Source: Periplaneta americana
Lineage: Eukaryota > Arthropoda > Insecta > Blattodea > Blattidae
Assembly (NCBI RefSeq): GCF_040183065.1
Contig: NC_091125.1
Location: 127,430,121 to 127,494,120 of the forward strand
Reading direction: 5' to 3'
DNA: 64,000 bases
A program made the translations under genes and the position numbers. Within the stretch, counting starts at the first letter, position 1; each line of letters starts with the position of its first letter. Below, piece by piece: positions 1-64,000 of the stretch. The notes beneath the pieces were generated by a model. It did no database searches. It saw only the letters and a list, made by a program, of their open reading frames with translations, and was not told the DNA's origin.

Positions 1-91
1 CAAGATGCCTCTTATTTCAATAATTCTATATCATGTTAAATAGTCATTGTCTACACTAAAGTATTATCGTCATCTCTCATTTCTCATCGTA

Positions 92-1102
92 ATGGCGAAC
101 CGACGTGACATGAGACAGCGAGTTATAGCTCTAGTTGAGGCTGGATATGGGGCTAGATCTGCTGGCCGTTTGGTCGGTGTTCCTGGAAGTACAGCCGCGA
201 GATGGGTTCATCGTTACCAAAATTTTGGGGAGGTCGAAAATCGCCCTATTCCTGGGCGTCCGCGGATTTCTTCATTGGAAGAGGATGCTCTTTTATTCGA
301 GACAGTTCGACAGAACCCCTTTCTGACTGCTAACGAAATAAGAGCAGCATCTAACTTTCCCGGCTCTTCACAGACTGTGATCAGCAGGTTGAGGAACCGC
401 GGTATTAGGAGCCGGAGGGCTGCGCAAATGGAAATATTGGGGGAAGCACAAGCTGTCGACCGTCTTGCCTTCGCTACCAATCGAGTGGATTTCGATTGGA
501 GAAATGTAATTTTCTCCGACGAAACAACCATCTCGAGTGATTACGAAGGTCCTGTCCGTGTCTATCGTGAGGATGGTCTCCGACATGATCAGCGCTATGT
601 GCACCGACGTGAAAGATCGGGGCGCTTTAGCATATCGTGTTGGGGGTGGATGTCTTACGATGGACCTGGCGTTATAGAACGCATCGATGGCCGGTTTAAT
701 GCGGAAACTTACGAGCACATTCTGGAAAATATATTCCTTCCCTCCGCCCGAGAACGTTTTCCCGAAGGAACATTGCTGTTCCAGCAGGATAACCATCCCG
801 TGCACTATGCTGCAAGCATTCAAAGATGGTTTCAAAGGAGACCCGAGATCGAAATCATTAATTGGCCTCCGAAGTCACCTGATTTGAATGTCATCGAAAA
901 TTTATGGGCGGAATTGAAAAAGAGAAGGATAGCCACCTATGCCCACCGACGCCCTCGAAATCGAGACGAATTGTGGGATCAAGTTGTTGACACCTGGGAA
1001 GATCTCGCCGGGGATCAGAACTTATTCCACAATCTCGTGACATCCATGCCGGATCGACTTAGAGCTGTAATAGAAGCTGATGGCATGTGGACAAGATTTT
1101 AA
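92..1102 (+). CDS. Tc1/mariner-type transposase, apparently intact
   Basis: A 336-residue ORF runs from the ATG at 92 to a TAA at 1102. The frame is open back to 47, but only a TTG lies there, so I take the ATG that begins MANRRDMRQR. An N-terminal helix-turn-helix region (about residues 1-110, with GRPR near residue 60) precedes a DDE catalytic domain. The first aspartate is in FSDET, the second in QQDNHPVH and the glutamate in SPDLNVIENLW. By my count 35 residues separate the second D from the E (DD35E), against 34 in classical Tc1. These enzymes cut and paste their own element at TA sites. The length is normal and I see no frameshift or stop, which is unusual beside the decayed copies elsewhere. 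The left terminal repeat lies at or beyond the window edge and I could not identify the right one. Confidence 0.93.
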   Translation: MANRRDMRQRVIALVEAGYGARSAGRLVGVPGSTAARWVHRYQNFGEVENRPIPGRPRISSLEEDALLFETVRQNPFLTANEIRAASNFPGSSQTVISRLRNRGIRSRRAAQMEILGEAQAVDRLAFATNRVDFDWRNVIFSDETTISSDYEGPVRVYREDGLRHDQRYVHRRERSGRFSISCWGWMSYDGPGVIERIDGRFNAETYEHILENIFLPSARERFPEGTLLFQQDNHPVHYAASIQRWFQRRPEIEIINWPPKSPDLNVIENLWAELKKRRIATYAHRRPRNRDELWDQVVDTWEDLAGDQNLFHNLVTSMPDRLRAVIEADGMWTRF

Positions 1103-8559: not shown

Positions 8560-8698
8560 ATATTTCCGTGCAGGAATTCTGCATTACCATTCGATAAAGG
8601 ATGGGTGAAACGGAGAAAAATTCTCTCCGGCACCAGGACTCGAACCTGGGTTTTTCAGCTCTACTTGCTGACGCTTTATCCACTAAGCCACACCGGAT
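8560..8698 (-). repeat. tRNA-derived SINE, family H
   Basis: On the minus strand an A box (GTGGCTTAGTGGATAAAGCG) and a B box (CAGGTTCGAGTCCTGG) are followed by GGAGAGAATTTTTCTCC. The same head-plus-GAATTTTTCTCC layout recurs in the SINEs at 36327 and 36668, which suggests a related family. Confidence 0.75.
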
Positions 8699-25064: not shown

Positions 25065-25256
25065 TTAAAAAAGAAATCGTATCAAATGTTTTGCGTAATT
25101 GTTTTCATTGTGCGATCGCTTCAAATGGTCTAACAAATTCGAAGTTCCACCACCCTTAGAGTAAATTCGCCCACAAAGTTTACAGTGTGCGACTTTATTA
25201 TTACCTTCAACTAAATTAAAGAATTTCCATGCGACGGATATCCGATTTGGTGCCAT
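25065..25256 (-). mobile_element. BED-type zinc finger, N-terminal fragment of a hAT transposase
   Basis: The 63-residue frame reads SVAWKFFNLVEGNNKVAHC, KLCGRIYSKGGGTSNLLDHL and KRSH. The C-x2-C ... H-x4-H pattern and the aromatic WKFF start are those of a BED finger, the DNA-binding domain at the front of hAT transposases. No catalytic part follows. It is most likely a transposon relic; a domesticated exon is possible but unsupported. Confidence 0.75.
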
Positions 25257-25780
25257 TTTATTCCCCTCACAACTACAGTCAGTCCGTACGCGCCGGTCGT
25301 CCTTGCGCTAACTGTCGCTTCGCTCCGAACCCCCGCAACCCTCAGTATGTCCCCTGTTACACCTACGGTACTATCGGAGATCACCGGTGGAGAGCTTTAT
25401 TCGCAATCTCAGATTCCTCCGCGGTAGTAGTCACTCCGATGAACAGCACTGGAATCGAACATTTCGAAGTCGTGGTTTGCGTTTAGCAATGGTACCAACA
25501 TTCCAAGTGATGCTTCAAGTTATAGTCCTATTAGAATTTACATCAAAGCAGAACTGGCAAAATTTGGTGGTGTCATAATGTTACATTTACTGTAAATATA
25601 GAAGTAATTTTCTTAAGTTGTATAAAAGTAGGCCGGGTCAGTTTTAGTTGTAGCCCTAGTTAGTGGTTAATGACTTTCATTATACTCGTATGTATTTATT
25701 TTTGTCCTATGTAAACGCGATGATCTCTTAACTGCATTTTAGCCCTCTGCGTCACTCATTCTACGCATCATTAATTATTG
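25257..25780. other. No feature recognised
   Basis: The left part (25260-25480) is more GC-rich than its surroundings and may be the 5' region of the hAT relic. No inverted ends found. Confidence 0.35.
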
Positions 25781-33662: not shown

Positions 33663-34549
33663 ACTTCATTATCTTAAATTTAGAATATTACTATGATGTA
33701 CCGAAGTAGAAGATTTTTTATATATATTTTTTCTTTTTTGCAGATTAGAGGGATGAATTTCTGTTTAACAAAGAAAACACAAACATTAAAAATTATACAC
33801 ATAACAAACACGAAAGTGTATGTTTCTTTACCTAAATGTACCTTGAATAAACAGAATGACGCAAGATAAAAAAAAACTGTCACAACCATATTTGCTTCCA
33901 GCAGTGAGCAGAATAAGGCTCAGTAGAATACTTAAAGCAGATTTCAGATATAAGCTTTCGGGTGAACATTCTATTTTATTTAAGAGCTCTTTGAAACTTC
34001 ATGTGCTACGCATATTTCGTATAGGCCTTCAGGAGAAGAAAACAAATAAGCAGAAAATGTTATAAAAAATAAGTTTAAGAGAAGGTAAGATAATTATGAA
34101 TTAATGACATTCCAAAGCTTCGCACACTCTTGATAATTGATAATATGGTCAGATAATTGTACGGATTAAGTAAAATCGACAGCGGGACAAAATCACACTA
34201 AGAAAACTTGAATATTTCTAACGCAGCTTTGAAGATCAAGTTCTGGTTTTTAGATAAGAAGTCGTGAAGTGATTGGGAGATATGATTGTGCTCAACGAGA
34301 ATGGAGGAAGAAAAAAATGAAAAGATAAAAAAATAGAAAAGTTTTTAACAGTTTCCTTTAATATAGAGTCTTCAAATAGACACTCTCAAAACATGATGAA
34401 CACTTTTTAAATGAAATTCTTGCCTTTTGTTATAAGTTTAATCCCCTGAAAATTCTACTGCATATACAAATGTCTACTCTTTAGTAAATAATTTTAAAAA
34501 GAAAAAAATAATTACTCAAGTTTATGAAAATCAAGCACAAAACCATATG
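33661..34549 (-). other. 3' flank of gene A
   Basis: No gene recognised. Possible minus-strand polyadenylation hexamers are ATTAAA at 34437-34442, about 108 nt past the gene A stop, and AATAAA near 33974-33979. Neither can be confirmed by reading alone. Confidence 0.3.
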
Positions 34550-37500
34550 TTACGTTTTCAATTTAATGAAAAGTTTACCCAAACGCAATTCTTTTATTTG
34601 ACCATCAAAGGTCAAAAGCATGAGATGACTTATTGGTGGCGAAGGATGTATACGTTGACTTGGATCCCGCTTCTCCTGAGTTTTGTGAGGTGACATATTG
34701 ATACAAGGAACACAGATGCAACCGTCACTTCCAATTCTTTCAACTGATCCGTATGATTGATCCAGACACGGAGGGCAGTTACAATCCGTTCCATTACTTT
34801 GCTCTTCCAGTTGTTGTCCAAGTGGTTGAACAATGGGCTTCAAGTTCTCATCACTGCTGCCTAACGACTGAAGTTGAAAATGTAGTTTGTTTGGAAACTG
34901 GGACGCTAAGGTGCAATAACAATCAGCAGCACCACCAACAAAATCACTTTGTTCCCTGAGTAGCTGAAGTTGTTGGGGTGTCCACACTGACAGAGTTGGA
35001 CAGGAACAAGCCGTACTTTGATAATCACTATTAAGAGCATAGCTGTTGTTATCAACTATCTCCTTATTTCGATCGGATGTGCTCAGCTTAACTCTTTCTT
35101 GATCAGAACAGGGGCACTCATACACTGAACTTGAGATGCTTTCAGGTACGAAAACTTCTGAGCATTTGCAAGGTGTATCTGTGACGTCATTATTTGCTAT
35201 TGTTCTTTTTGAAGGAGTTTCTGTAGTATTCGTTTCTTTTGCAGGTGAATAACTGCAATGACAGAAAATAAACACAATAATTTATGTATTTTCTTAGTAA
35301 AACCACAGTCTAGTATATACAGTCACGACGTTCAATACGTAGTAAATATGCATACATTAGATAGTTGCTCACCACTAGGATCGCTAATATCGTCTCATTA
35401 CAGACAATGCAAAATAGTACCTGCACAGTCTATTGTTTCTAGCACCCTCAAAACTCAAGCTTCGTGACTGTATATAGTAGACTGTGGTAAAACTTTATTA
35501 ATCGTTAATAATTTCATTTAAATTTACTGAAATTGAATAAGTTTAAAAAAAAAAGTCTATAGTAACGATTTCAGACAAATTTTCGCAAGGGAAAAGAAAT
35601 GTATAGAAATAATGAAATATAATAATATATTCAATGTAATAATAATTTTATTTTGGCATTATTATTACTCTTTTTCTACGTCTGAAAGCAAACAAGATAA
35701 TGCAAAACATTAAACATTTGAAATTTTTATACCAATAAACAAAGCTTAAGATTTATATTCATATTATTAATCTAAATAGCTAAACGAGAAAGAGCAACTA
35801 ATAATGCAAACAAGAAAAGCAATAATTATAAATGATTAGACAAAAGCATGTATTCGACACATTCAGTAACTTATTAATAATAAATTTCATTAGACAAAAT
35901 ATACGTTTCTAACTTAATTTTGAATTTCGATGACGTCCGGCAACCCCAGATGTTACTAGATAGACAATATTAAAGACATTTTTATTAATTTGTCCTACAG
36001 AATAATATCTGTAATATTGACAATTAATATTTGAGGCGAAAAATTCGTTCCGGAGCCGGGGATCGAACCCGGGTCCTTGGTTCTATGTACCAAGCGCTCT
36101 GACCACTGACCTACACCGAGGGGGCAGAGAAGGCCTGATGGCCTTATCTGTACCAGGTTAAATAAATAAATACTACTACTAATTCAATCCACAACGCCGG
36201 ACCGAACCCTCCTCCTTGAATGTTTCCCTTTTGGCCTGAATCCAAGTTAGGCATATATGTTGACGTTTTATGTCCAAGTCAACTGGCATTATACAAGGGG
36301 CGCACTCAGCTGAGCGAATTATTTGGCCGGTCAGAGCTCTTGGTACGTAGAACCAAGGACCCGGGTTCGATCCCCGGCGCTGGAGCGAATTTTTCTCCTC
36401 AAATATTAATTGTCAATATTACAGATATTATTCTGTAGGACAAATGAATAAAAAATCTTTAATATTCTCATAGCTAGCAGTGCATATTTCTGTACAGATT
36501 ACTGTCCACTTAACTGCGGAATCCCGGCCAAATAATTCACTCAGTTGAGTGCGCTCTTTGTATAATGACAGTTGACTTGAACATAAAACGTCAACATATA
36601 TGCCTAACTTGGAGTCAGTCCAAAAGGGAAACATTCAAGGAGGAGGGTTCGGTCCGTTGCTGTGGATTGAATTCGGCGTAGCTCAGTGGTCAGAGCGCTT
36701 GGTACGTAGAACCAAAGACCAGGGTTCGATCCCCGGCGTCGGAGCGAATTTTTTTCCTCAAATATTAAATATTAATTAGATAGACAATTCGAAAGACGAG
36801 GTAATGATACTGTAATAGTATTAGTAGTTATTAATAGTATATTAGTAACAGTATTAACATAGCTTCTCAAAAATAAGTAAACAGGCAAATTTTCAGCACA
36901 AATCCATAATAAAACAAAATTAGAGGAGACTAAACATTTTCAAGAGTAGTGATAGTAGCGAAGAAATTAAATAAATAGATAGACTATTATAAATAAAAAA
37001 ATTGTCCTAGTTTACTCATTTTTATCTTCGTATTTGTTCAGTTCTGACTTATGATACAAAGCTTCACTCAAGCATGTAAATTATAATTTGCTTTTACAGA
37101 CAAAAGTAACGAATATTAAATTTATTATAAAATACATAAACATTCAGACCAGAAGAAAAAATAATAAGGTTTCGACCTATGATATAAATGAATTAAATAA
37201 AACAGTCATTAGCAATAGACAACTAACTCTAGTCAAAGGACAACGATATTTCAGAAAATTCAAAACAATATAAAGTCCAACTTTAAATTAAATGAGCCAT
37301 AAGGTTGGACTTTGAAGCTGTAGATGATAATGATTACTCACCTGGCTGGATTAAGTAATTTGATTTCTCCTTCTGTAGAAGGCCCATCTGAAAATAAATA
37401 CAAAATATATGTTACAAAAAAAACCTGTGTAACTAATTAATGTAATTTGCTACCATAAGGACTTTATAAGAATTATAGACCAAATATGATCAGATTATAA

Positions 37501-39469
37501 GTGTTCCCATGTTCAAATGTTGTCGGTTGGTTTAAGCAAAAATGTGACTCTGATATTGAATATTTTTCAGCACTTGGCCTGCCTTAAACCTATTTAAAAT
37601 GTATGCATTTCTTAATGTACGTATACGCATATCGTTACACTCAGAAGACATGTACAGTAGTGGCAAAAAAAACCGGACCGACCCTTGTAGCTGATTTCAG
37701 AGCCTTGTTCATTCAGAGTACGATAGACTGGTAACTAAGACTTTCGTGGTTCGAATCCTGCCTGGGAAGGAAACTTTTTTTTTTGTTCCTTATTCAAATT
37801 TATTCCCAATACGTTTCGATTGCAGCGATATTTTACTGCTTAAATAACTTATTATTCCCAGAACATAAATTTTACCAGCAATCGAAACGTATTGGGAATA
37901 AATTTGAATATGGAACAAAAAAAAAGTTTCCTTCCCAGGCAGGATTCGAACCACGAAAGTCTTAGTTACCAGTCTATCGTGCTCTGGAGTGAGCAAGGCT
38001 CTGAAATCAGCTACAAGGGTTGGACCGGTTTTTTTTTTTTGCCACTACTGTACACCTGTGATATTTTTAATCAAAATATTCACACTCTTTTCAACTAGAG
38101 ACATCAAAAATCTTGATTATGTTGACACGTGTAGCCAAGGACTGGGAAAGGTTGGGATTGCACATAAAATTTGTCTTTATCCATGATAAAGAGACCTTAA
38201 ACACACACAATAAATATTCAGCGTGAAGTCAGCAAGTCGTATACACTTAGGATTTCCGCTAATAATTATACAACACCAGCAATCTAGAATGAAATCACAT
38301 GAAACCGTACGGGAAAGAATAGATAACCGAAGCTGCTGTATCTGTTATGGTTTTTAGACTTACAAACACATGACAGTACAAAGATTTATTTCCCCATTTT
38401 CATATGGCTGCCGCCGATGGCTACGCGATCTAAAGCGGCGCTGTCCGAAGACTACTTGGTTCGAATCCCGCTTCGGGTATAGGTGGATCTCCTTGGTTAA
38501 TATTATGGTGTGTCTTTGCAGAGGTTCCGATTCTCAGTGTGTCATTTAAACGGTTCATACCGTTTCGTCCGAACCGGTTGTTAAAATTTCTGAGATTCCC
38601 GGAAACGGTTGTTCATATTTCTCAAATTTTTCTTCCCTCCCCATAAATAAATTGTGAATTACTGCAGGAAAGACGTGCGATATACCCCTGAATTGTTGTT
38701 TTCAATACTTATTTTGTGGATAAACGCCATCTTCTGAAAGCTGAAGTTCCAGTAACCATTAAAGAGGTAAGAAAAAGCATGAAAGCAGTAGCTATGAATT
38801 CTGAAGAAGCAGAAAGAGCATTTATGACCAAATACACAGACAAGTAAATGGAAGTTCTTCCTCGTTGAAAATATCTCTGGTCTGGCAGTGTAGCTAATAG
38901 GAAAATCTCTGGAGCAATGGGATGCAACACCATTAGTGTAATCACAGTCTAGTATATACAGTCGCGAAGCTCAATACCTAGTAAATATGCAAACATTAGA
39001 TAGTTGCTCATCACTAGGATCGCTAATATCGCCTCATTACAGGAAATGCAAAATAGAACCGTCACAGTCTATTGTTTCTAGCACCCTCAAAACTCAAGCT
39101 TCGTGACTGTATATAGCAGACTGTGGTGTAATTATGGTTATGCCGAGGACATCAATATAGCTGCCGACCGTTGCGTCGGGTCAAAAAGAAAGGAAACTCC
39201 GAATATTTGAAACTTTACTTATAGTTATATTCTTTTCTTTAATTTTTTTTTTTTAACATTTGGTAACTTTGATAATAAGCTAGGTACAGATTTGCATGTT
39301 GCATGAATTTATCTTCGTCGTTGACATTAACGCTTTTATGTCTGTAGATTTACTGGCATGTAAAGGAACTCCTACGGGACAAAATTCCGGCACATCCGGC
39401 GACGCTGATATAACCTCTGCAGTTGCGAGCGTCGTTAAATAAAACGTAACATTTAACGCTTTTATTCAC

Positions 39470-39546
<77 letters not shown>

Positions 39547-42500
39547 CATTATTATCATCATCATCATCACCATCATCATCATAGAACCTGTTCTTAAATA
39601 TTTTGAATGATATCACTGCCTACGCTATGCTGTCCACAGGCTAGGCAAGGCTCACATATGTGACATGTCTACTGTGTGTATTCGTATCATCGTTCCTTCC
39701 CCTACAGGTAGTACGTAAGTCATACATACAATAGGAAGAGGTTAAACAAAAACGAAAAAGAGTATGTTTCTGAAAAAGTCTAAATTTTATTACTATTCTG
39801 AAAATATTTTTTTTAATTTAAACTTAAGATTTCGGAAAATTTTATTCGAGTGTATTTATTTTTATTTATTTATTTATTTTTTCAGAAATACCATCTTTAT
39901 AACCAGTAAAAGTTTCATTATCTATTCCGTTTACATTTTCTCATAAAATTTCGGCCAGTGCATGGGAGCGGTGCATACTCATCATTGTGATGAATTTGGG
40001 GAGCCACGTAAGATAGCGGAAATCAGTTATTCTGTTTGGGATCATTGAGCTAACCACACGATACCTCTGTTGCGGTTGGATAATTGTACACTCTGCTGAG
40101 ACCAGCAGATGATTGATCAGTCTTGGCCCTTTGTGGGCTGTCGCGCCATGAATTTAATTTAATTCTGTTAATATATACAGACAACTATGTATGTGTTAAA
40201 TGGATAGAGACAAGGCTGTAGCTTTCCGCCATTATAATTTAATATTATTTTGAAACTGTACTTTATAACTGGAGTAAGAGATGTGAAAGAAAAATTCCTT
40301 AAGTATAAAATAATAATTCCATTGTTTAAACGATTAAATGTACCTGTTATAAAGGGGAGAAAGGGATAAATTGTACGCAGCAGTTAAAGGTATGCACTTC
40401 TACCACAGTCTTGTATATACAGTCGCGAAGCTTGAGATGTGAGGGTACTAGGAACAATAAACTGTGCACGTACTATTTCGCATTGTCTGTGATGAGGCGA
40501 TAGTAGCGATCCTAGTGGTTAGTAACTATGGATGCATGGGATGCATATTTACTACGTACTGAGCTTCGTGTTTGTATATACTAGACTGTGCTTCTACTGT
40601 GGCGCACCTGTGGTCGGAAACAAGTCTGCATTATGGTGCTATCTAGCGGAGTCCGCTACGAGTTGGTTGCATTCGCTTGTTTGAGGTGATCCAAGTAGTT
40701 GTGTTGGTGACCATCAGAATTTTATTATTGTGTTTTGGCGACATTTTGGATAAAGAAGACGCAGAATATATTAAACTTTTCAATATCATTACAATACTAC
40801 TTTAATGTTGTTTCTTGTGTTATTTGCCTAGTAAATCCACAGTAGTTTGTCAAGTTTTCGATTGCTGTAAGGAACTAGGGTTCGTTAAATGATAATGGCG
40901 ACAAGATGGACGATCGTACGCAGTGCACCCAATTCTCCCTTGTTGCTTACGATTACCCCTGCATTATTGAAGATATAGTCCACACCTGTAGAGTAACGGT
41001 TAGCGCGTCTGGCCACGAAACCAGGTGGCCCGGTCGGGGCAAGTTACCTGGTTGAGGTTTTTTCCGGGGTTTTCCCTCAACCCAATACGAGCAAATGCTG
41101 GGTAACTTTCGGTGCTGGACCCCGGACGCATTTCACCGGCATTATAACTTTCATTTCATTCAGATGCTAAATAACCTAGATGTTGATACAGCGTCATAAA
41201 ATAACCCAATAAAATAAAAAATAAAAATATTGAAGATATAGTAATTTAATTTCTTTATTCGACTAATTTATAAAACTTGTAATTCTCATATGCCTCGTCC
41301 GTAACAGAACCACCTCCAAGACTTCATGGACTCAGAAACAGCTAGAAGCAGCAATGGCTGCTCTTAGAAATGGAACAATACGTGAAATGTTCTATCATAG
41401 CAACATATTACTTGATACATTTTCTATGTTATTCAATTTTATAAAATATAAAATCTCAATAAATAGTCATTGTATTACGATTCAAAGTAATGTGTTTGCA
41501 TTTACCCTTCTCTTCCCTAGGTGATTTACTTAACTTTGTACCATCGAACAACTCGTTAATTCTTAACAATTCACCGCCATCTCTCCTAGTCCCGAGGTAG
41601 AAATTTTACAAGAAAATGTCTGACCCCGCCAGGAATCGAACCCATCGAACCCGGGTCGGCTAGTCTGGAGACAGACACGCTACCACAGAGCTAATTTAGA
41701 TTAGATTTTATGTTTTCTTTTGGAATCTATAGACTATGTTCAAAACTTTCAGTTTTTTAATATATCGTACCTTGAAATAATGTGTTTTAGCTAACCCTTC
41801 TACAATCCGCAAAACTCGACATTTTCGTAACTCGACACCTTCTTAGTCCACATTAGGTTAAGTTTGTACCGCTTCTAAAATTAAAATTCTTTAAATCTGT
41901 AGATTAAATCCTAAATAGCATGTCTGTTAAGACTGTTTAGGTGAAGTCTTTTTTGTCCAATAAATTCATTGGTAATGAATTTTGGATGGTTGTTTAAAAT
42001 TTTCTGATAGGTAAGACTGTAATTGTCTATATCTTGTGCAACTGTTGTGATACCAAAATCATGGTAGATACGTATATTTGTTGTTGACGTACCAAGATGT
42101 TGCCAATTGTTCGCAGTGTCTCTGATTGGAATCGCTCCAGTATCTAAATGTTACAATTGCTTGCAGTACCCCAAAGCTGAATTCCGTACATCCAAATAAT
42201 CTCAGAACAATGAATACCTTATTTTTTGTTCAAATTGAAATCACATTAAGCATCTCCTTTGATGTTTATGGTGTTGTTGAACAGGTACTCGTCTCGGAAG
42301 ATATTAATTTTGAGGATCCATGTTTGTTAGTCTTTATTTTCTTGTTTTGATTAATTCTACCACCACTCAAAATATTGAGTGTTTTTTCTAACATCCTATA
42401 TATACACAGCACAGTTATAAAATCTCTGTGGAGTGTTCAGAGAGGTATTCGGAGCACTTGTGCCTCATGCCTGCTGTAGAACATCTCTCGAAAGATGGAG

Positions 42501-42982
42501 TAACTTTATAAGAAGGGACAGAGTACAGGTATACATGCTAAGGTTTATCTTGTCTCAGTAGCAATAAAACCAAGTCCCTTCAAATGAGGGTGAAGATTAT
42601 AGGAAGGTTGTAAATTTTCAGGATTCCTTTCAAAACCTAGTTATTTACAGGCTGCCGGAACTCAGTTTTTTGAAAGACAAGCTCAGTGACGGAACTATAC
42701 AGTACGAAAAGAGATATTTTGTTATTTTATTTTGTGCTACAGAATGTATCAACTAGTCCTTTCCGCCACTGGATGGATGGACGGCACCGCTCCACTCCCT
42801 CCATCACCATAACAACACAGACGAAGTAAGACATATCTCCTTTCTCTCTCTTTTCACAGTGAGACAAGATACATCACACAGCTTTAAGATATCATTAAAT
42901 TGAAAGGAAAGAAGAAGAAGACGAAGAAGGAAATGAAAAGAAAGGAAAAGAGTAGAAGAAGAGAATGGTGATGATTATATTA

Positions 42983-43014
<32 letters not shown>

Positions 43015-43175
43015 GAAAACAATGGGTTAATAAAAGAGGAAAAATAGAGCAACAATAGCAAAAGAAGAAAGACCGTGTGAGAGGATCGTTCTGGTACGTA
43101 CTTACCATTATCAGGTACTGGAATTGCAAACACTGAAGTAAAGCATAGAAGGTACACAAGCATTTTATGCGGCAT
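34550..43175 (-). CDS. Gene A: secreted C-x-C-rich protein, three exons, unrecognised family
   Basis: Exons: 43175-43106 (70 nt), 37387-37342 (46 nt) and 35252-34550 (703 nt). Introns are phase 1 then phase 2, with donors GTAAGT and GTGAGT and acceptors TATTTATTTTCAG and TGTCATTGCAG. The joined frame is open for 272 codons and ends in TAA. Residues 1-17 (MPHKMLVYLLCFTSVFA) form a clear signal peptide. The mature protein has fourteen cysteines, all in pairs or triplets: CKC (67), CPC (85), CSC (121), CYC (150), CNCPPC (196) and CICVPC (217). The block CSCPTLSVWTPQQLQLL (121-137) and the tail DGQIKELRLGK (255-265) are matched in gene B. N-glycosylation sequons lie at 47, 192 and 224. No transmembrane segment follows the signal peptide, so an extracellular protein is inferred. 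The paired cysteines could form disulfides or bind metal; function is unknown. Introns hold three family-M MITEs and several SINEs. The splice model is mine and untested by transcripts. Confidence 0.85.
35304..35486 (+). mobile_element. MITE family M, copy 5, in gene A intron 2
   Basis: Near-perfect inverted ends, with GTAAAAC duplicated at 35297-35303 and 35487-35493. It begins only 51 nt upstream (in gene direction) of the acceptor of gene A exon 3. Confidence 0.95.
35860..36840 (-). mobile_element. LINE 3'-UTR fragment split by a composite insertion
   Basis: The left part, 35860-35968 (AACTTAATTTTGAATTTCGA ... GTCCGGCAACCCC), and the right part, from 36789 (TCGAAAGACGAGGTAATGAT), both align with 21195-21290 of the LINE at 20759-21665. 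The 35969-36776 insertion separates them. Confidence 0.65.
35969..36776. mobile_element. Composite inverted-SINE insertion with 12-bp target duplication
   Basis: TAGATAGACAAT stands at 35957-35968 and 36777-36788. Inside are a minus-strand tRNA-like SINE (35969-36121, B box GGGTTCGATCCCCGG), a LINE tail with GAGAAGGCCTGATGGCCTTA (36119-36180), a 150-bp arm (36181-36330), a truncated plus-strand SINE (36327-36470), the inverted second arm (36524-36673) and a plus-strand SINE (36668-36776). The arms share GAACCCTCCTCCTTGAATGT and GTTGACGTTTTATGT. Confidence 0.85.
37655..38050. mobile_element. Foldback element with a tRNA-like segment in each arm
   Basis: Arms of about 185 bp (37655-37845 and 37865-38050) are near-perfect inverted repeats, with ends CAGTAGTGGCAAAAAA flanked by TA. 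Each arm holds GTGGTTCGAATCCTGCCTGG, a B box, preceded by GACTGGTAACTAAGAC. The ends and TA target resemble Tc1/mariner elements. Located in gene A intron 1. Confidence 0.9.
38410..38480 (+). repeat. tRNA-derived SINE head
   Basis: GATGGCTACGCGATCTAAAG at the left and a perfect B box (TTGGTTCGAATCCCGC) at the right, inside gene A intron 1. The body is not shared with other copies in the window. Confidence 0.6.
38943..39125 (+). mobile_element. MITE family M, copy 6, in gene A intron 1
   Basis: Family inverted repeats, with GTGTAAT at 38936-38942 and 39126-39132. Confidence 0.95.
39340..39445 (+). repeat. SINE family A, 3' part
   Basis: GATTTACTGGCATGTAAAGG, CGGGACAAAATTCCGGCACA, GACGCTGATATAACC and GAGCGTCGTTAAATAAA. 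The tRNA head is lost. Confidence 0.88.
39470..39585. repeat. (AAT)n followed by (CAT)n microsatellite
   Basis: About 24 AAT units, then a shorter ATC/CAT stretch, directly after the SINE. Confidence 0.97.
40404..40590 (-). mobile_element. MITE family M, copy 7, inverted, in gene A intron 1
   Basis: Family inverted repeats, with CTTCTAC at 40397-40403 and 40591-40597. A short GGATGCAT duplication is present inside. Confidence 0.95.
40980..41227 (+). repeat. SINE family B, complete copy
   Basis: Head TAGAGTAACGGTTAGCGCGT, body TTACCTGGTTGAGG and CGGGGTTTTCCCTCAA, tail TAAAATAACCCAATAAAATA. The 15-bp repeat TATTGAAGATATAGT flanks it at 40965-40979 and 41228-41242. The B-box half has been lost or rearranged. 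Confidence 0.92.
41615..41692 (-). repeat. tRNA-like sequence, probable SINE head
   Basis: The minus strand reads TTAGCTCTGTGGTAGCGTGT ... GGGTTCGATTCCTGGCGGGG, with A and B boxes at tRNA spacing but a duplicated GGGTTCGAT and no pairing acceptor arm. Confidence 0.55.
41693..42896. other. Gene A intron 1, nothing further recognised
   Basis: AT-rich; the open frame 42126-42350 has no recognisable domain. Confidence 0.4.
42897..43030. repeat. GAA-rich tract and (GAT)n
   Basis: Purine-rich AAGAAGAAGACGAAGAAGG, then GATGATGATGATG, about 75 nt inside intron 1 from the gene A exon 1 donor. Confidence 0.9.
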
Positions 43176-43198
43176 CTTCCACAAAGTCCTACAGCAGT

Positions 43199-43233
43199 AC
43201 TGAGGCTGTGTAAGTAGGACATTCGTTTAAATA
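43199..43233 (-). promoter_or_regulatory. Core promoter candidate of gene A
   Basis: TATTTAAA (43233-43226) lies 32 nt before the A of the arthropod initiator TCAGT (43203-43199). This would put the transcription start at 43201 and leave a 25-nt leader before the ATG at 43175. Confidence 0.6.
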
Positions 43234-43734
43234 CTGAAGGAACGTGAGGGATGTACACCATCACAGTATTATTTCACGGAAAACAAGTTTCATCTGACCT
43301 CATGAGAAACAGAAAATATGAGCACGGCGACTTGATTGCACACAGAAGATTGAGATTTGTTCTGAAATAACTGTAATGTCGGAAATTAACAATTTCATGT
43401 CGAGCTACTTTATATTTGGAATAAATGAAATGAGATAGAAGCTAGAGGTTATGAGTCCTTGTTAAAAATGTCAAGCCGCAACCTCCATGAGGAGGACAAC
43501 CTTAGTCAGATGACCTCAGACACCCGCCTCCATACCATATATCTATGAAGTTACTTCGTAATTCTTCAATAAAGATAGATTGGAACAAAACTTAGCGAGC
43601 TCAAAAACGGACGACAATGATGGGATAGGTAGATTTTTAGTGGTGATAAAATTATCAACAGTAATCTCACTAGAGGTTTTGATTTATCTAGAGAAAATCA
43701 AAACTCGAGTGGGATTTAATTGACTATTACACGA

Positions 43735-44335
43735 TTATAAGAAAGTATATGAAGATTAGAAGAAATAAAGTACCCTAATACAATAAAATATTAATTGACT
43801 TGCTGAAATTCTATTTCACTAATGTTAGCTTCACCAAAATGTTTGAATGGAGCCGCCCTTTTCAGTTTTACTGTCTATGTTATAAACAAATGACGATCGC
43901 AAAGCATGTTTTATAGTATACCTTATTTTATTTCAAGGAGTGCAGTTCGGTGGCTCCTTTGAACACCGAACTGCACTTCTTGAAATAAAATAAGGTATAC
44001 CGTAAACAATGTAAAGTTTGAAATGTTGGCAAACAAAGAAACAAATGGTAGGAAGGTGATAAAAACAGGAGAAAGTATATAAAGATCACAAGAAATAAAG
44101 TAATCTAATACAATAAAATAGATATTAACTACTTACTAAAATCTCTATTTCACTAATGTTTCCTTCACCAAAATGTTTGAACGGAGCCGCCATTTTCAGT
44201 CGACTATCTATGCGGGAAACAAATTACGATCGCAAAGCATGTTTTATAGTACCGTAAAGAATTTGCAGTTTGAAATGTTGCCAAACAAAGGAACAAATGC
44301 TAGGATAGTGATAAAAACAAACAAATGCTAGAGAA
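43735..44335 (+). repeat. Tandem duplication, units of about 250-320 bp
   Basis: Unit 1 (about 43740-44058) and unit 2 (about 44071-44320) share AGAAATAAAGTA, TCTAATACAATAAAATA, TTTCACTAATGTT, TTCACCAAAATGTTTGAA and GATCGCAAAGCATGTTTTAT. Unit 1 is longer because of a 79-bp hairpin insertion. A short third piece follows. Confidence 0.85.
43919..43997. mobile_element. 79-bp hairpin micro-MITE
   Basis: TACCTTATTTTATTTCAAG with GAGTGCAGTTCGGTG is repeated in inverse orientation after a short loop, with one mismatch. It is flanked by TA (43917-43918 and 43998-43999) and is absent from the same place in the neighbouring duplicate unit (ATAGTACCGTAAA). Confidence 0.9.
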
Positions 44336-44504
44336 GCGATAAAATTGCGCGATAAGCAACCATGATTGGTTGAAAGACGTCCTTTCGTACCGTTTTATTG
44401 GTCGAAAGTAATATGACGTATTAAAAGTGTAATAGTCAATATAAATCTATATACAGGCGACCAAGTAGGCCTACTACTTTTAATACCGACAATGATCTCC
44501 AGAG

Positions 44505-44959
44505 AGTCGGCCTTGGTAGCGCAGTCGGTATTGCGTTCCCTTCTGTGCTCGAAGTTGCGTGTTCGATCCCGGTCCAGGTCGATGGCATTTAAGTGTGCTT
44601 AAATTCGATAGGCTCATGTCAGTAGATTTACTGGCATGTAAAAGAACTCCTGCGGGACAAAATTCCGGCACACCGGCGACGCTGATATAGGGTAAAGTTG
44701 CCTAATTCCGTGATACTCCTAATTCCGTGATACGTTTTTTTCACTGAATTCCACGGGATTGGGTATCTTGCTATGAAGTTCGCCGATATCTCGAAAGTAG
44801 GAGAAAGATGCACTCTTTCGAGAAAAGTGTCTGGCGCTATGGTCGAATGGTAAAGCTTTGACCGACATTCAATTTTAAAAAAGTATCACGGGATTAGGGG
44901 TATCACGGAAATAGGCAACTTTAACCTAACCTCGGCAGTTGCGAGCGTCGTTAAATAAA
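44505..44959 (+). repeat. SINE family A split by a MITE
   Basis: Head TTGGTAGCGCAGTCGGTATT, B box GTGTTCGATCCCGG, AAGTGTGCTTAAA, CGGGACAAAATTCCGGCACA up to GACGCTGATATA. It resumes at 44929 with ACCTCGGCAGTTGCGAGCGT and GTTAAATAAA. Confidence 0.93.
44690..44926. mobile_element. TA-flanked MITE inserted in the SINE
   Basis: Left end GGGTAAAGTTGCCTAATTCC; right end, reverse complement, GGTTAAAGTTGCCTATTTCC. TA is duplicated at 44688-44689 and 44927-44928. It is 237 bp, non-coding, of Tc1/mariner type by target. Confidence 0.92.
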
Positions 44960-45062
44960 TCATGATTTAAAAAAAAATCTCCAGATTACAACGATTATAA
45001 AAAAATTTCTCAGTAAGACTGTATGGAAATTTTTACATACAAAAACAGGCAATGAAAAAATA

Positions 45063-45175
45063 TTATAAGATTTACACCAGGAGATGAAAAGGAATACAAG
45101 GGAAAAAAGGCGAAGGCAAAGAGAACCAAGGGAAGACAAGGAGAACAAGGGGAAGGCAAAGAGAACAAGAGGAAG
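45063..45175. repeat. Purine-rich minisatellite, copy 1
   Basis: Irregular repeats built on GGGAAGACAAGGAGAACAAG and GGCAAAGAGAACAAG, about 1.9 kb upstream of gene A. The same motif runs at 63715-64000. Confidence 0.88.
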
Positions 45176-45923
45176 ACCGCTAGAATTTGTAAGACTTTGA
45201 CTAGATCAGAACCAGCAAAACCTTTATGACAGACGCTTCAACATAAGAGTAAATCTGCTTTCTATCATTTATAATATTTATTTGCAACGTTATGCCAACC
45301 TATGGTTCTATATGAATATTAAGCAGCTGGCTATAAAACTATAGACATAATCTCATTCAGAAATGTAAAAGACGTTGCGTTTCAATGTGGAATGCTCGAA
45401 TGCCAATGGAAACACAATGATGATGAAAGTGTTAATTTTGCAATGCTAACTTTTATCCATTGCTCACTTTGCTACTGTTTTGATTATTTGATTGACATTC
45501 CGATTATCAGAGATATGGTCTCTTCCTACAAGGGTCAATATGCAAAACTGTCCCACGTTTGGTAATGTCCACGTTAAAAAAAATGTCCATTGTTCAAAAG
45601 GTCCTACAGTTATATTTTTCCCGGCCTAGAAGGTCCAACACACTAAAATGGCCTGCGTTTCATAAGGATCACTTTCACAAAATGCCCTTTTTCGGAGAAG
45701 TCAGTATTCAATTACATCAGGTTTTAAATGTCCTACGTGTTAAAAAGGAGCATTTAACTTCAATAAAAAACCAGTAAATTAAAAAAGGAATATAACTTAA
45801 TAAATTAAATTAAATTTAAAAGATACAAAATACAAGATACATTTAGGAAAAATGTGGGCGATTACTATTTTGCTGATAAGAAACCATTCTTATTGCTGCA
45901 TTTCTCTGTAGAAGTTTTTTTTT

Positions 45924-46211
45924 TTAACATACCTGTCTCATAACAGCGCTTGACGGCTGCGTTGGGTTACCTCTTCCTGTTTTTCGTATGTTATTCAGAA
46001 CTTCCCTAATCCGTATCTCTCTGACGTTTGGAGGATGCAAATCGTTTTCTGTAGACCTACCATCTTTCATGACATTACAGTTCTTCCAATCAAAACATCT
46101 CCAATATTTTCTGTCAACTTTTCGGTTGTCTTGATGGTAATGATACAGATTATCGTGATATAATAACATTGTTTTTTTACTATAGATTGGGGCTAGTCTG
46201 ACATTCTCCAT
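45924..46211 (-). CDS. FLYWCH-type zinc-finger fragment, likely transposon-borne
   Basis: A 95-residue frame starts at an ATG (46211). The stretch LLYHDNLYHY, then DRKYWRCFDWKNC, then LHPPNVREI has the order of a FLYWCH domain: aromatic-rich strands, a Y-W-x-C with second cysteine, and a late histidine. FLYWCH fingers are DNA- or protein-binding and often precede MULE transposases. No transposase domain follows, so the element is truncated. The last histidine pair looks degraded (HPP in place of H-N-H-P). Confidence 0.65.
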   Translation of the reverse strand: MENVRLAPIYSKKTMLLYHDNLYHYHQDNRKVDRKYWRCFDWKNCNVMKDGRSTENDLHPPNVREIRIREVLNNIRKTGRGNPTQPSSAVMRQVC

Positions 46212-46442
46212 TTTTTAATTTTACATTCCATAGTTCAATGCTACGGCAACGAAAAACGATTATTATTGAAAATATCCTTAGGTGCGAAGTAATTAAGTGT
46301 GCGGGACATTTAGTAGAAAGACATTTAATGATTTTACCTTTTTTATGTGGGACATTAAGGGTGCTATGCATAGACATTTCGCTAACCCGCGCTCGAGCGT
46401 GCTGAACTAGCTCCGGCTATCGACTGTTACTTGTACAGGATT

Positions 46443-46517
46443 CATATCATATCATATCATATCATATCATATCATATATCATATCATATCATATCATATC
46501 ATATCATATCATATATA
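46443..46517. repeat. (ATATC)n microsatellite, left
   Basis: About 14 pentanucleotide units with one slip. Confidence 0.96.
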
Positions 46518-46519
46518 AT

Positions 46520-46975
46520 ATGATATATTATATTGTATTAATAAAATTCATACATAAAAATCGAAATAATTTTGAATTGTATTCTCATAGTTATGAAACA
46601 AAAGGTATGAATTTTTTAAGGTTGTTTGAACCAAAATACAACACTGTTACAATATTTAATCATAGTAGTAATTTAGGCCCAAGAATATATAACAAATTTA
46701 TATTTAAATATCCTAATCTTGTCAATTCTAATAGTACTATTATTAAATTTAAAAAGTTATGTATGGATTTTATAAAAATTGAAAAATTGTAAATTTAAAT
46801 TTATATACTATAATTGCACAGTAGATATAAGACAAATTGTATTGTATAATTATTAATTTCAATTCAGGAATCCGCCCCTGAGCAAGAGTTCTACTCTTTC
46901 AGGGGCGAGCTAAAATTTTTTCTCTGTATATTATATTTTATGTTACAGTTATTAGCAAAATAATAAATAAATAAA
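46520..46975 (+). mobile_element. LINE 3'-terminal fragment between two pentanucleotide arrays
   Basis: Frame 46520-46792 reads HSYETKGMNFLRLFEPKYN and NLGPRIYNKFIFKYP, ending KFKKLCMDFIK. This is typical of the extreme C-terminus of a LINE reverse-transcriptase protein. In the 3' UTR a hairpin GCCCCTGA / TCAGGGGC (46874-46906) precedes an AATAAATAAATAAAT tail. Confidence 0.7.
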
Positions 46976-46976
46976 T

Positions 46977-47208
46977 ATCATATCATATCATATCATATCA
47001 TATCATATCATATCATATCATATCATATCATATCATATATCATATATCATATATCATATATCATATCATATCATATATCATATATCATATCATATCATAT
47101 ATCATATCATATATCATATCATATATCATATCATATCATATATCATATCATATCATATCATATCATATCATATCATATCATATCATATCATATCATATCA
47201 TATCATAT
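46977..47208. repeat. (ATATC)n microsatellite, right
   Basis: About 45 pentanucleotide units with repeated ATATATC slips, starting directly at the LINE tail. Confidence 0.97.
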
Positions 47209-47500
47209 CGCTAACACTGGTTTATGAATACAATAGTTCGCTGATCATCTACCGAAAGCCAGCGCTAAGAATATGAATGTGGCCCTAAATGTGGAACTTT
47301 TTGACCTATGGACCTTTCAGCTATATGGGACATTTTTGTTGCGGTCCTTTTCATTATGTTGACCCTATTGTGTATGGGACACTAAATGTGGGATTATTTG
47401 GTGTGTGTCCTTCTTGGTTTGACATTACGTTAGTGAGAACATTTTTGATGACCTTTTCTCTTGGAAGCGACATTCTACACCTACACAATTAGGAGTATAT

Positions 47501-48237
47501 GGTGTGTATTTTTCTCATTATTTATTCATCTCCGTGTCCATTAAGAATATTTTCACAATTGCGTTTTCCTACAAAACAAACCAAAAGTGTCATCAAATTT
47601 CTGAAATTTAGATGGCACTGCAAGCTAAACGGTTGACTTGACACGGGAAAGACAACCACCACGAGACTCAGCGCCCTCAAATTACTACGGTGAGCCAGGT
47701 TCCATCTGTGTTCGAGTGTTCAGACCCGAAGGCATCTCTTGTGGATACAAACCGTTCTTATGTATCCACACAAATAGTGTTTACATGTGGACTAATGTCT
47801 GTGGACTTCGTAACCAAGTTTATGATGCAAGAACACAGCCATACAACCGCATAATAATGTCATGGCTTGTGCATAGGTTGGGACCTGCAGATAACTTGTA
47901 CTGGGACGTTTTATCTCTCATATTAAATCATTATTAATTTGTGTATTTACTGACCCTTTCTATCAAAAGAGATGTATTGAAACTAATATTTTCATTTTTA
48001 AGCTCATGCAGTGTTGTCAAATGACTTTCGTTCGAACTAGTAGAATGCGTCTGAGTCTAAAGAAAACATAAAACAATACAACGTGGCCTGCTGTGAAGAA
48101 AATCCAAGTCCCCGAATACCGGTAAGGCATCATGTCACAAACACTTTTAAGTATGAATATTTCTGACAAAGTAAATATTATTCAACCCTTGAAAACGGCA
48201 CAAATATTAAGGACATTGCTGGAGTGAATAAGGTAAT
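47501..48237. other. No gene recognised
   Basis: The open frame 47638-47937 starts at a TTG, has no recognisable domain and no splice support. Confidence 0.4.
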
Positions 48238-49020
<783 letters not shown>

Positions 49021-49061
49021 ATTTATTATTGTATTTTCTTTATACAGTATATATAAAAATG

Positions 49062-49282
49062 TTATGTTTTATCTAACGACGCTCGCAACTGCAGAGGTTA
49101 TATCAGCGTCGCCGGATGTGCCGGAATTTTGTTCCGCAGGAGTTCTTTTACATGTTCTACCTCTACTGACATGAGCCTGTCGCATTTAAGCACACTTAAA
49201 TGCCATCGACCTGGCCCGGGATCGAACCCGCAACCTTGGGCATAGAAGGCCAGCGCTATACCAACTCGCCAACCAGGTCGAC
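49062..49282 (-). repeat. SINE family A, complete copy
   Basis: Reverse complement: TTGGCGAGTTGGTATAGCGC, GGGTTCGATCCCGGGCCAGG, AAGTGTGCTTAAA, GACGCTGATATAACCTCTGC, GAGCGTCGTTAGATAAAAC. Confidence 0.93.
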
Positions 49283-49285
49283 TTA

Positions 49286-49335
<50 letters not shown>
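49286..49335. repeat. (TA)n microsatellite
   Basis: About 24 TA units next to the SINE head. Confidence 0.97.
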
Positions 49336-49336
<1 letters not shown>

Positions 49337-50041
49337 TAGGAAATAAAATTAATTTGTATTAATGTTGTATCAGATTTGGTTTTTATAACGAATTAATAAC
49401 CCTTAAATATCCATTCCCGTATGATCGATTTTTTACTGTTCGTAATATTCCTTGACTTTCTTGTTCTACCTCAGTGGTATTCAATCTTCTTTGCTAGCGT
49501 ACCCCCAAACTGCATTGCAATTATATAAGAATTAAAAAGGGGGACATTTTAGGCACTTAGTAATACTTTTAGCCACTTGATGCGCTGCTGGATGCATGAA
49601 GTAGTTACTCTGCCAAAAACAGGTGGCAGCAAGATAAATTCTACATGAGCGCCTCTAGCATTTGAAACATGAAAAAATCTCGCATTCTAGATAGTGTACA
49701 TCCACGACTGTACTCTGAAGTTCAGACGAAGAGGATGAAGAAGAAGAAGATGGTGATGATGCGGGTGACAAAGATGATGAAGTTAGGAGTTTCTTTAACC
49801 ATAATGACATGTTTAACAAATTCAGTATGAAAACATATTTAATATTTATGACTACGCAGAATATTTGTGGTGACAAGTAGACATTTAAGTTCTTATTTCA
49901 TAATATTTTTACATGATTTGCTTTCCCAATGGAGTACTGAAGTCAGTGAATAATTTTAAGAACGTTAACAAGAAGTAAAAGCATAAAATAAACTGAACTT
50001 ACTCTCTCTCTCTCCTGTGATAAATGGAGCTCGAAGGGCAA
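49336..50041. other. 3' flank of gene B; isolated hAT-like end
   Basis: CAGTGGTATTCAATCTTCTT followed by GCTAGCGTACCCCC at 49472 resembles a hAT terminus. No partner end found. GA-rich tract at 49728-49780. Confidence 0.35.
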
Positions 50042-61889
<11,848 letters not shown>

Positions 61890-61937
61890 CGTGAGAGGCT
61901 TAGGGCAACATTGTTCCGAGTGACCACACGAGGACTG

Positions 61938-61944
61938 TTAAATA
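61938..61944 (-). promoter_or_regulatory. TATA-like element of gene B
   Basis: TATTTAA ends 49 nt before the ATG at 61889, almost the same place as TATTTAAA in gene A (51 nt before its ATG). No convincing initiator at the ideal distance; TCACT at 61923 is somewhat close. Confidence 0.45.
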
Positions 61945-63714
61945 CAGAGGTCGTCATTCGCAAGAAGCAGCCGCATGTTTCAGGGAGAACTTGTTCTAGC
62001 CTGCGCCTGAGGCACCGTAGGTAGGAGGATTCAAACAAAGCTTTTCATCTGCCATCATTCATAACCTTACAATTATCACTAATTTACAATCTGGATTGCC
62101 TCAAAACCCTCGATCTCACTTAAGCAGAATAGGTACCACAGTTCTATGAGTACATTTAAATCTGTTAAATATGAGGTTATTCGTAAGTTAAGATATTTTC
62201 AAAATATTTGACAGTTTTATACAGGGACATCATTTTATTTTTACTAAAGTTTTTAATATTAACCTGGCTATATCTTCGGATTTAAGGTCTAGAACCGGAA
62301 ACACCGCTTGCTCCCCCTTCCAAGACTGGAGTTCGATGATACTTTACTACGTATAGGAGGGAAGAAAAGTAGTTCATCCATTTATGTAAACTAGGAAATA
62401 TCGCAATTTTGAGTTTGATAATTTTCATTAGGTTTTTGTTTAATCAAAATACAGTACCTACTGTATTAACACCTAGTGTTTTTACTCACGAATTGAGCTA
62501 TCCATTCGGACGTATTCATTATGCAGTGTATATTGTACTGTTACAGCACATTAGTGTACACTATAGAGAATGAAGTTAAATGGAAAAATAATCATAATAT
62601 GGATATTTAAACACATTTTTGAAAATGGTGGCCGTTCATTTCCATACAGGCTTCAGTTCTTTTGCGTATATTATCGCACTATAGACTACTGTACCTAATT
62701 CCAATTATCAGTTTCATCCTTCGTACGAGTAACTCATGTTGAAATAATTCTATACCTACTCTATAAAAGAGTACCTTACGTACTGTAAATTTAATTTTCA
62801 CTTCTGTCCGATCAGAAAAGATAAAATTACTCAGAAATGCTATCTACTCTCCGTTCAAGTGGTTTTGTCGCAGGATCGTAGAAAGGGGGGGGGGGGGAAT
62901 CACATAGCAGTTAATTACTTAACGAGACTCTTTTATTTAAGTTATTTTAAACAGTTGTATAACATTACGTAGATGTCCAATAATTCCTAACAGAAATTAA
63001 TGTTTTCAGGAAGGAGCTAAGACAGCCCAGCTGCTGGACATTACAGAGGGGCGAACAGAAGCAGGTAGTGGAAACCGGAATGCGACGTAGGCAAACGGAC
63101 GACAGTACCTGTGCGAAAATATGATTCAATATTGAAAGCTCTTTCGTCACTGGAAAACGCGAAAATATTTCTGGAACGTACTATACTCACTAACTCAGTA
63201 CTGCATACGCGGCCTTGGTTCTGTGTGGAGAACGGTTGGAAGTTTACTAGTAGAGGGGGTGGGAGTGAAGTATATTAAAAAACTCAGGTACAATAAAAAT
63301 GTAAGTAAAAATAAAATGATGTCCCTGTATAAAAAAGATTAGGAATGACTGGAGTGAAGGTAAGACGAGTACCTTGACTTCCTTACCTGAGTTCATGAGT
63401 TACTATGTGAAGCAGGATCACTCTGCAGTACAGGCGTGAACACACAAGATAGTGGTGCTATAGCGAAAGTAACTCGAATGCTTCATGGAGGCCATGGACT
63501 AGAAATCTTACGTCAAAATACGGAGGCGATATCCAATCTTAAAATCGCAACATAACGTCATCAGTTTGAAGAGATATTTCAATAAATGAACATTCAAGTG
63601 AGATTATTCGCAATGTCTGTGGTTGTGAATTATGGTCACATATTTCTACCACTGTTACCATTGTTGCCTCCTGTGATCAACACTAAAAAAAGACAAGTAA
63701 CTTCATAAAATCAT
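61945..63714. other. Upstream region of gene B, nothing recognised
   Basis: AT-rich, one G12 run at 62886-62897. Open frames carry no recognisable domain. Confidence 0.4.
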
Positions 63715-64000
63715 ATAGGAAAGACAAGAGGGAGACAAGGATATAAGGGAAAGACAAGAAGAAAAGCTAGGAGTGGACATGAACAACGAAGTGTTTCAAG
63801 GAGAACAAGGTTAATACAAGGAGATAATACAAGGGTAACAAAATGAGAACAAGGGTAATGTCAGGAGAACAAGGAAAAGGTAAAGAGAACGAGGGAGATA
63901 TAAAAAAACAAGGAGTGGACACGAAGAACATTGCGAAGACAAGGAGAACAAGGGGAAGACAAGGAGAACAAGGGGAAGACGAGGAGAACAAAGGGAAGAC
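63715..64000. repeat. Purine-rich minisatellite, copy 2, runs off the window
   Basis: Repeats of about 18-20 bp built on GGGGAAGACAAGGAGAACAA become more regular towards the window end. The same motif occurs at 45063-45175. Confidence 0.92.

Follow-up and report, generated by a model that had tools for sequence, protein, structure and literature searches.

Two tandem Periplaneta americana genes encoding predicted secreted C-x-C proteins of an unnamed family, and a proposed rule for their disulfides

A 64,000-nucleotide stretch of Periplaneta americana contig NC_091125.1 (the window) carries two neighbouring minus-strand genes, G1 and G2, which make up a real protein family that, as far as our searches reach, has no name. 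What is new is the pair of genes and a checkable rule for their disulfides, the mechanism behind the rule being inferred. Our reading, to which we give a probability of roughly one half, is that G1 and G2 are tandem duplicates encoding secreted, probably N-glycosylated proteins in which each C-x-C motif would clasp a neighbour with as many cysteines. G1 (43175..34550, minus strand, 272 aa) and G2 (61889..50042, minus strand, 195 aa) were each modelled with three exons, as follows.

43106..43175, minus strand: G1 exon 1, 70 nt coding, with the start codon and predicted signal peptide
37342..37387, minus strand: G1 exon 2, 46 nt, the sole strict candidate in the intron and also used by the public protein record P0003
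34550..35252, minus strand: G1 exon 3, 703 nt including the stop codon, with cysteine modules A, B and C and the tail
61826..61889, minus strand: G2 exon 1, 64 nt coding, with the start codon and predicted signal peptide
54209..54260, minus strand: G2 exon 2, 52 nt, the better of two strict candidates and the least certain exon
50042..50513, minus strand: G2 exon 3, 472 nt including the stop codon, with cysteine modules B and C and the tail

Two three-exon minus-strand genes had been put forward in the original prediction, and an independent scan recovered exons that join to spliced frames of 819 nt (G1) and 588 nt (G2), the lengths predicted, free of internal stops. The third exons lie within stop-free runs of 243 codons (G1, 34553..35281) and 174 codons (G2, 50045..50566). 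The window contains 16 such runs of 140 codons or more, among which these rank second and seventh in length; several of the others are simple repeats or transposon frames. Exon 1 of G1 has an ATG in an open frame with A at -3, a hydrophobic leader and a GTAAGT donor, and is absent from the public P0003 model, while exon 1 of G2 has the same structure and phase, again with A at -3 and a GTAAGT donor. The sequence TATTTAA lies 58 nt upstream of the start codon in G1 and 55 nt upstream in G2. Spliced straight onto exon 3, exon 1 would lose the reading frame in either gene; if exon 1 is right, a small exon whose length is 3n+1 nucleotides must therefore lie between them. A search of this interval for internal exons, in which the splice-score cut-offs were fixed and the phase was prescribed, gave one strict candidate in the G1 intron and two in the G2 intron, compared to means of 0.07 and 0.87, respectively, in the same strict scan of 30 simulated introns; looser cut-offs gave four (G1) and three (G2) in the real introns. 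By these counts G1 exon 2 is well supported, whereas G2 exon 2 taken alone is not above chance and is the weakest piece of both models. The models are aided by agreement between the genes, as both have a phase 1 intron followed by a phase 2 intron, a total of 116 nt in exons 1 and 2, and in common the GTAAGT donor, the A at -3, the TATTTAA and a leader before [IT]P[VL]P. The splicing of exon 1 in both genes and of exon 2 in G2 is predicted.

The proteins encoded by the two third exons match each other in BLASTP at E = 3e-14, and the local alignment score of G1 with G2 is 174, compared to a maximum of 61 among 1000 shuffles. This significant similarity, together with the common intron phases, places the two in one family and bears out the earlier claim that they are paralogues. 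All 10 mature cysteines of G2 align to cysteines of G1, and a further cysteine column in the signal peptides brings the shared columns to 11. Identical residues make up 60 of the 194 aligned, the same codon being used in 23 of the 60, and identity by codon position over the 194 aligned codons is 0.448, 0.552 and 0.335 at the first, second and third positions, which on sequence grounds reads as the pattern of conserved coding sequence. The low third-position identity suggests that the duplication is probably old. At the nucleotide level, blastn (E ≤ 1e-3) of 34000..44500 against 49300..64000 returned one dispersed repeat only, of 172 bp at 73%; its copies sit in the introns of both genes (G1, 40975..41144, plus strand; G2, 54427..54590, plus strand). 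G1 and G2 are thus probably old tandem duplicates that have been kept as protein. That either locus, or both, is a decaying and unexpressed copy or a frame open by chance is highly improbable. The 64 kb around them does resemble, over much of its length, repeats and the remains of transposons, but the open frames of the third exons, the codon-position pattern and the conservation between the paralogues all argue against it.

The likeness between G1 and G2 resides mostly in module B, for which none of 1000 plain and none of 1000 cysteine-fixed shuffles reach the observed score, while for the C modules alone the score was reached by 4 of 1000 plain and 102 of 1000 cysteine-fixed shuffles. An internal duplication within G1 was considered but is not claimed, modules 1 and 2 being only weakly alike (their score is reached in 11 of 1000 plain shuffles and in 58 of 1000 with the cysteines fixed). 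The common core, WTPxQ followed by CYC, and the common tail, DGx[IL]KE, which had both been predicted, were found in a six-frame scan of the window at the two loci and nowhere else; one extra WSPTQ at 40713 lacks the remainder of the pattern. When the spliced proteins were searched against the window by tblastn for a third copy, the best match outside the two loci had E = 0.26.

Other features of the window are mostly of repeat or transposon character. A Tc1/mariner-type transposase frame at 44..1102 (plus strand) is unbroken over 352 codons (DDE_3, 1e-18; HTH_Tnp_Tc3_2, 7.2e-10), and a BED zinc finger frame at 25065..25307 (minus strand; 1.8e-13) is probably transposon-derived. Frames at 52708..53585 (plus strand), which resemble a Penelope-like element, contain a weak GIY-YIG match at 53139..53582 (E = 0.0022, below the cut-off). 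Sequences resembling tRNA-Tyr occur at 8625..8697 (minus strand), 36047..36120 (minus strand) and 36672..36745 (plus strand), with Rfam scores of 52.4, 31.4 and 42 bits, respectively; the pair near 36 kb could, at a guess, be SINEs of tRNA origin. At 59459..60162 (plus strand), two frames that overlap, of 141 and 115 codons, have no Pfam match and may, by eye, be pieces of one broken coding sequence. Long simple-repeat arrays at 46967..47227 and 48232..48870 (plus strand) give frames that read SYHIISYHI and YLSIYLSI.

Exon 1 of both genes encodes a hydrophobic N-terminus, called as a leader by eye from the sequence, with the motif xPxP ([IT]P[VL]P) past the likely cleavage site, and both products would be secreted by way of this predicted signal peptide. 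The whole precursors contain 15 (G1) and 14 (G2) cysteines, of which 14 in 255 residues and 10 in 178 residues follow the predicted signal peptide, in agreement with the fourteen and ten previously counted. The mature cysteines of G1 are at positions 67,69 / 85,87 / 121,123 / 150,152 / 196,198,201 / 217,219,222 and those of G2 at 69,71 / 98,100 / 134,136,138 / 153,155,158, which gives motifs of 2, 2, 2, 2, 3 and 3 cysteines in G1 and of 2, 2, 3 and 3 in G2. Nearly all are in i/i+2 doublets, their number is even and CC is absent; a partner at i±2 is present for 12 of 14 cysteines in G1 and 9 of 10 in G2, a level reached by none of 20,000 shuffles for either protein, and the remaining three are the final cysteines of CNCPPC or CICVPC. 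The original prediction had described the arrangement as C-x-C or C-x-C-P-P-C. Its C-x-C part stands, but the longer form is not uniform, since the triplets vary between CNCPPC and CICVPC in G1 and between CNCYC and CNCPPC in G2. Both products carry N-x-S/T sites (four in G1, three in G2) and, as predicted from these sites, are probably glycoproteins.

Searches for known families gave no match at cut-off. Against Pfam-A, the best matches of the G1 exon-3 protein were FIBL-2 (13.3 bits, cut-off 27) and Cys_rich_CWC (12.4 bits, cut-off 24), and the G2 exon-3 protein had none; against NCBIfam, G1 had none and G2 a single 7.1-bit match (cut-off 800); a sequence search of the PDB up to E = 1 returned no match for G1 and two for G2, the best at 0.31. 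As far as these searches reach, we therefore concur with the original prediction that no named family has this pattern, and no paper describing it was found among the titles and abstract openings of the open-licence PMC literature. In the protein database, the G1 exon-3 protein gave 116 candidates, with only P0003, from P. americana itself, at E ≤ 1; the G2 exon-3 protein gave nine candidates among proteins of up to 273 aa, the range covered by that search, and none at E ≤ 0.001; and a two-row profile of G1 and G2 gave 504 candidates, with P0003 again the only one at E ≤ 10. Pattern matches in viral contigs (99) and in prokaryote genome contigs (74) yielded no confirmed relative.

The public record P0003 is a P. 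americana 'uncharacterized protein' of 301 aa (ncbi, uniref) for which no function is named. It is 100% identical to G1 exon 3 over the 233-residue query and agrees with G1 exon 2 and with its junction to exon 3, which is independent support for that part of our model. In order, it consists of about 52 out-of-frame N-terminal residues followed by G1 exon 2 and G1 exon 3, and the first coding piece is given here.

50003..50159, minus strand: first coding piece of P0003, the end of G2 exon 3 plus bases past its stop, read in another frame (accurate to about 2 bases)

P0003 is a chimera of two genes, in which the G2 protein is not contained. Taken at face value it would imply that G1 and G2 are one transcription unit, with a read-through transcript joining G2 exon 3 to G1 exons 2 and 3, and that G1 exon 1 is unreal. 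For this speaks the donor that the record takes, a GTAAGT some 39 nt beyond the stop codon of G2, after which it proceeds through G1 exons 2 and 3, but we regard such a unit as distinctly unlikely. Its first piece would take the last part of G2 exon 3 in a wrong frame, losing the conserved tail; its product would start without a hydrophobic leader, as the N-terminus of P0003 does, yet the rest is a cysteine-rich chain of secreted type; and G1 exon 1 is present, with the structure and phase of G2 exon 1. Because the G2 piece is read out of frame, a prediction error is a likelier origin of the fusion than a read-through transcript. Three annotations of P. americana give 16,750, 21,336 and 29,939 protein-coding genes in the portion of the source available (PMC12774602), and totals that differ in this way fit uneven annotation.

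The state of this record bears on how the searches are to be read. With G1 garbled, and G2 missing despite its evident presence in the DNA, absence from the protein databases is weak evidence. The homologue searches depend on exact words in common, and in the case of the protein database also on the proteins having been annotated. The original prediction had called the family lineage-specific; we found no relative outside P. americana, but searches of this kind do not sustain that claim. With third positions so far diverged between the copies, the family could go back well beyond the species itself, with relatives possibly present elsewhere but unannotated. More generally, for small secreted proteins with several exons, 'no homologue' may mean 'not annotated'.

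Within the chain, the positions of the cysteines are better conserved than their surroundings, with 10 mature cysteine columns common to both proteins compared to 60 of 194 residues identical overall. The spacing inside the shared pairs of motifs is kept (26 residues in G1 and 26 in G2 for one pair, 15 and 14 for the other), while the linker between the pairs varies from 43 residues in G1 to 33 in G2. Chemistry described for designed peptides offers a way to read this layout, as, in the parts of the source available, closure inside a CXC or CPPC motif is unfavourable and such motifs bond to one another instead, and motifs with three cysteines make three bonds between motifs (PMC12509089). By analogy, after signal cleavage just ahead of [IT]P[VL]P, each CxC, CxCxxC or CxCxC motif of G1 and G2 would hardly close on itself and would be bridged by disulfides to the following motif with the same count of cysteines, giving seven disulfides in G1 (2+2, 2+2, 3+3) and five in G2 (2+2, 3+3). 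The clasp between CSC or CTC and CYC would close around a short helix, WTPxQLQxL, and the mature product would consist of two or three small clasps along a flexible, probably glycosylated chain exported by its signal peptide. The pattern and spacing of the cysteines fit pairing from motif to motif, with the bonds themselves predicted. As statistics, the equal-number layout is weak: it arises by chance in 3 of 15 placements of six motifs and 2 of 6 placements of four, and G1 and G2, being related, do not count as independent cases. AlphaFold models of the two sequences are poor (mean pLDDT 37.4 and 50.4), with hints of a helix at TPxQLQxL in both and of a strand pair in the tail; the helix, like the N-glycosylation, is a prediction. 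Foldseek with the G2 model, itself poor, returned no match at E ≤ 0.001.

The same motifs could instead cross-link one molecule to another and so build an insoluble network, for example in eggshell, ootheca or cuticle. In the antibody hinge, CPPC cross-links between chains. Designed peptides point the same way, in that CPPC favours parallel dimeric pairing in the available part of the source (PMC12509089), and the choriogenesis of cockroaches uses proteins without homologues, as far as the consulted sections of two studies describe it (PMC2792769, PMC2683872). The conserved spacing within pairs fits bonds inside one chain better, however, and the word cysteine does not occur in the available text on Brownie, one such choriogenesis protein (PMC2792769), so that we consider a network between molecules rather unlikely. 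The cysteines could also be reduced and bind a metal (zinc or copper); metal-binding geometry was among the things that the original prediction suggested looking for. C-x-C and C-x-C-x-x-C are common spacings of metal ligands, which the motifs match, but metal binding appears improbable to us, as the signal peptide would route the protein through the oxidizing endoplasmic reticulum and the cysteine content (14 of 255 and 10 of 178 residues) is far below that of metallothioneins. A metallothionein is short, intracellular and about one third cysteine; a binder of that kind was rejected for G1 and G2 on account of their hydrophobic leaders and of this low cysteine content.

We thus prefer intramolecular clasps between neighbouring motifs, in a protein that would act outside the cell. 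As a first guess, it would serve as a long-lasting constituent of a gland secretion, of matrix or of eggshell, the tissue being likewise a guess. Eggs and secretions are the first place to look, because cockroach choriogenesis uses proteins without known homologues. A bolder version, which we consider possible but doubtful, is that this is a natural family folding by a grammar of motifs with no conserved core, in which equal-number neighbours pair and the intervening chain is free to diverge. If so, G1 and G2 would be a natural counterpart of the CXC, CPPC and three-cysteine motifs of designed peptides, and a family that public annotation overlooked on account of two very small and remote first exons.

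G1 and G2 add an unnamed family to the secreted proteins of an insect that is both pest and model, expose a specific fault or peculiarity in one public protein entry, in which two genes are fused and one of them is out of frame, and supply a simple, testable rule for their disulfides. Should the clasp rule hold, natural secreted proteins would be tied to the design rules of disulfide-rich peptides. Among natural proteins, the Drosophila salivary glue proteins Sgs7 and Sgs8, which are short and secreted with CxC and CxCxxC motifs around a helical stretch, may be of comparable build. Brownie of Blattella germanica and the other novel choriogenesis sequences, 19 of them from an ovary library, are, in the portions of the papers available, cockroach genes without recognized homologues, as are G1 and G2, and are likened to them by description only (PMC2792769, PMC2683872); Brownie differs in having 112 aa and, besides its signal peptide, a 14-residue tandem repeat, with no cysteine pattern mentioned in the available text (PMC2792769). 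A further comparison is with the designed disulfide-directed multicyclic peptides, which are synthetic, short and not homologous to G1 and G2 but which, as far as the source at hand describes them, share their CXC doublets and three-cysteine motifs (PMC12509089), a likeness of possible mechanism rather than of descent.
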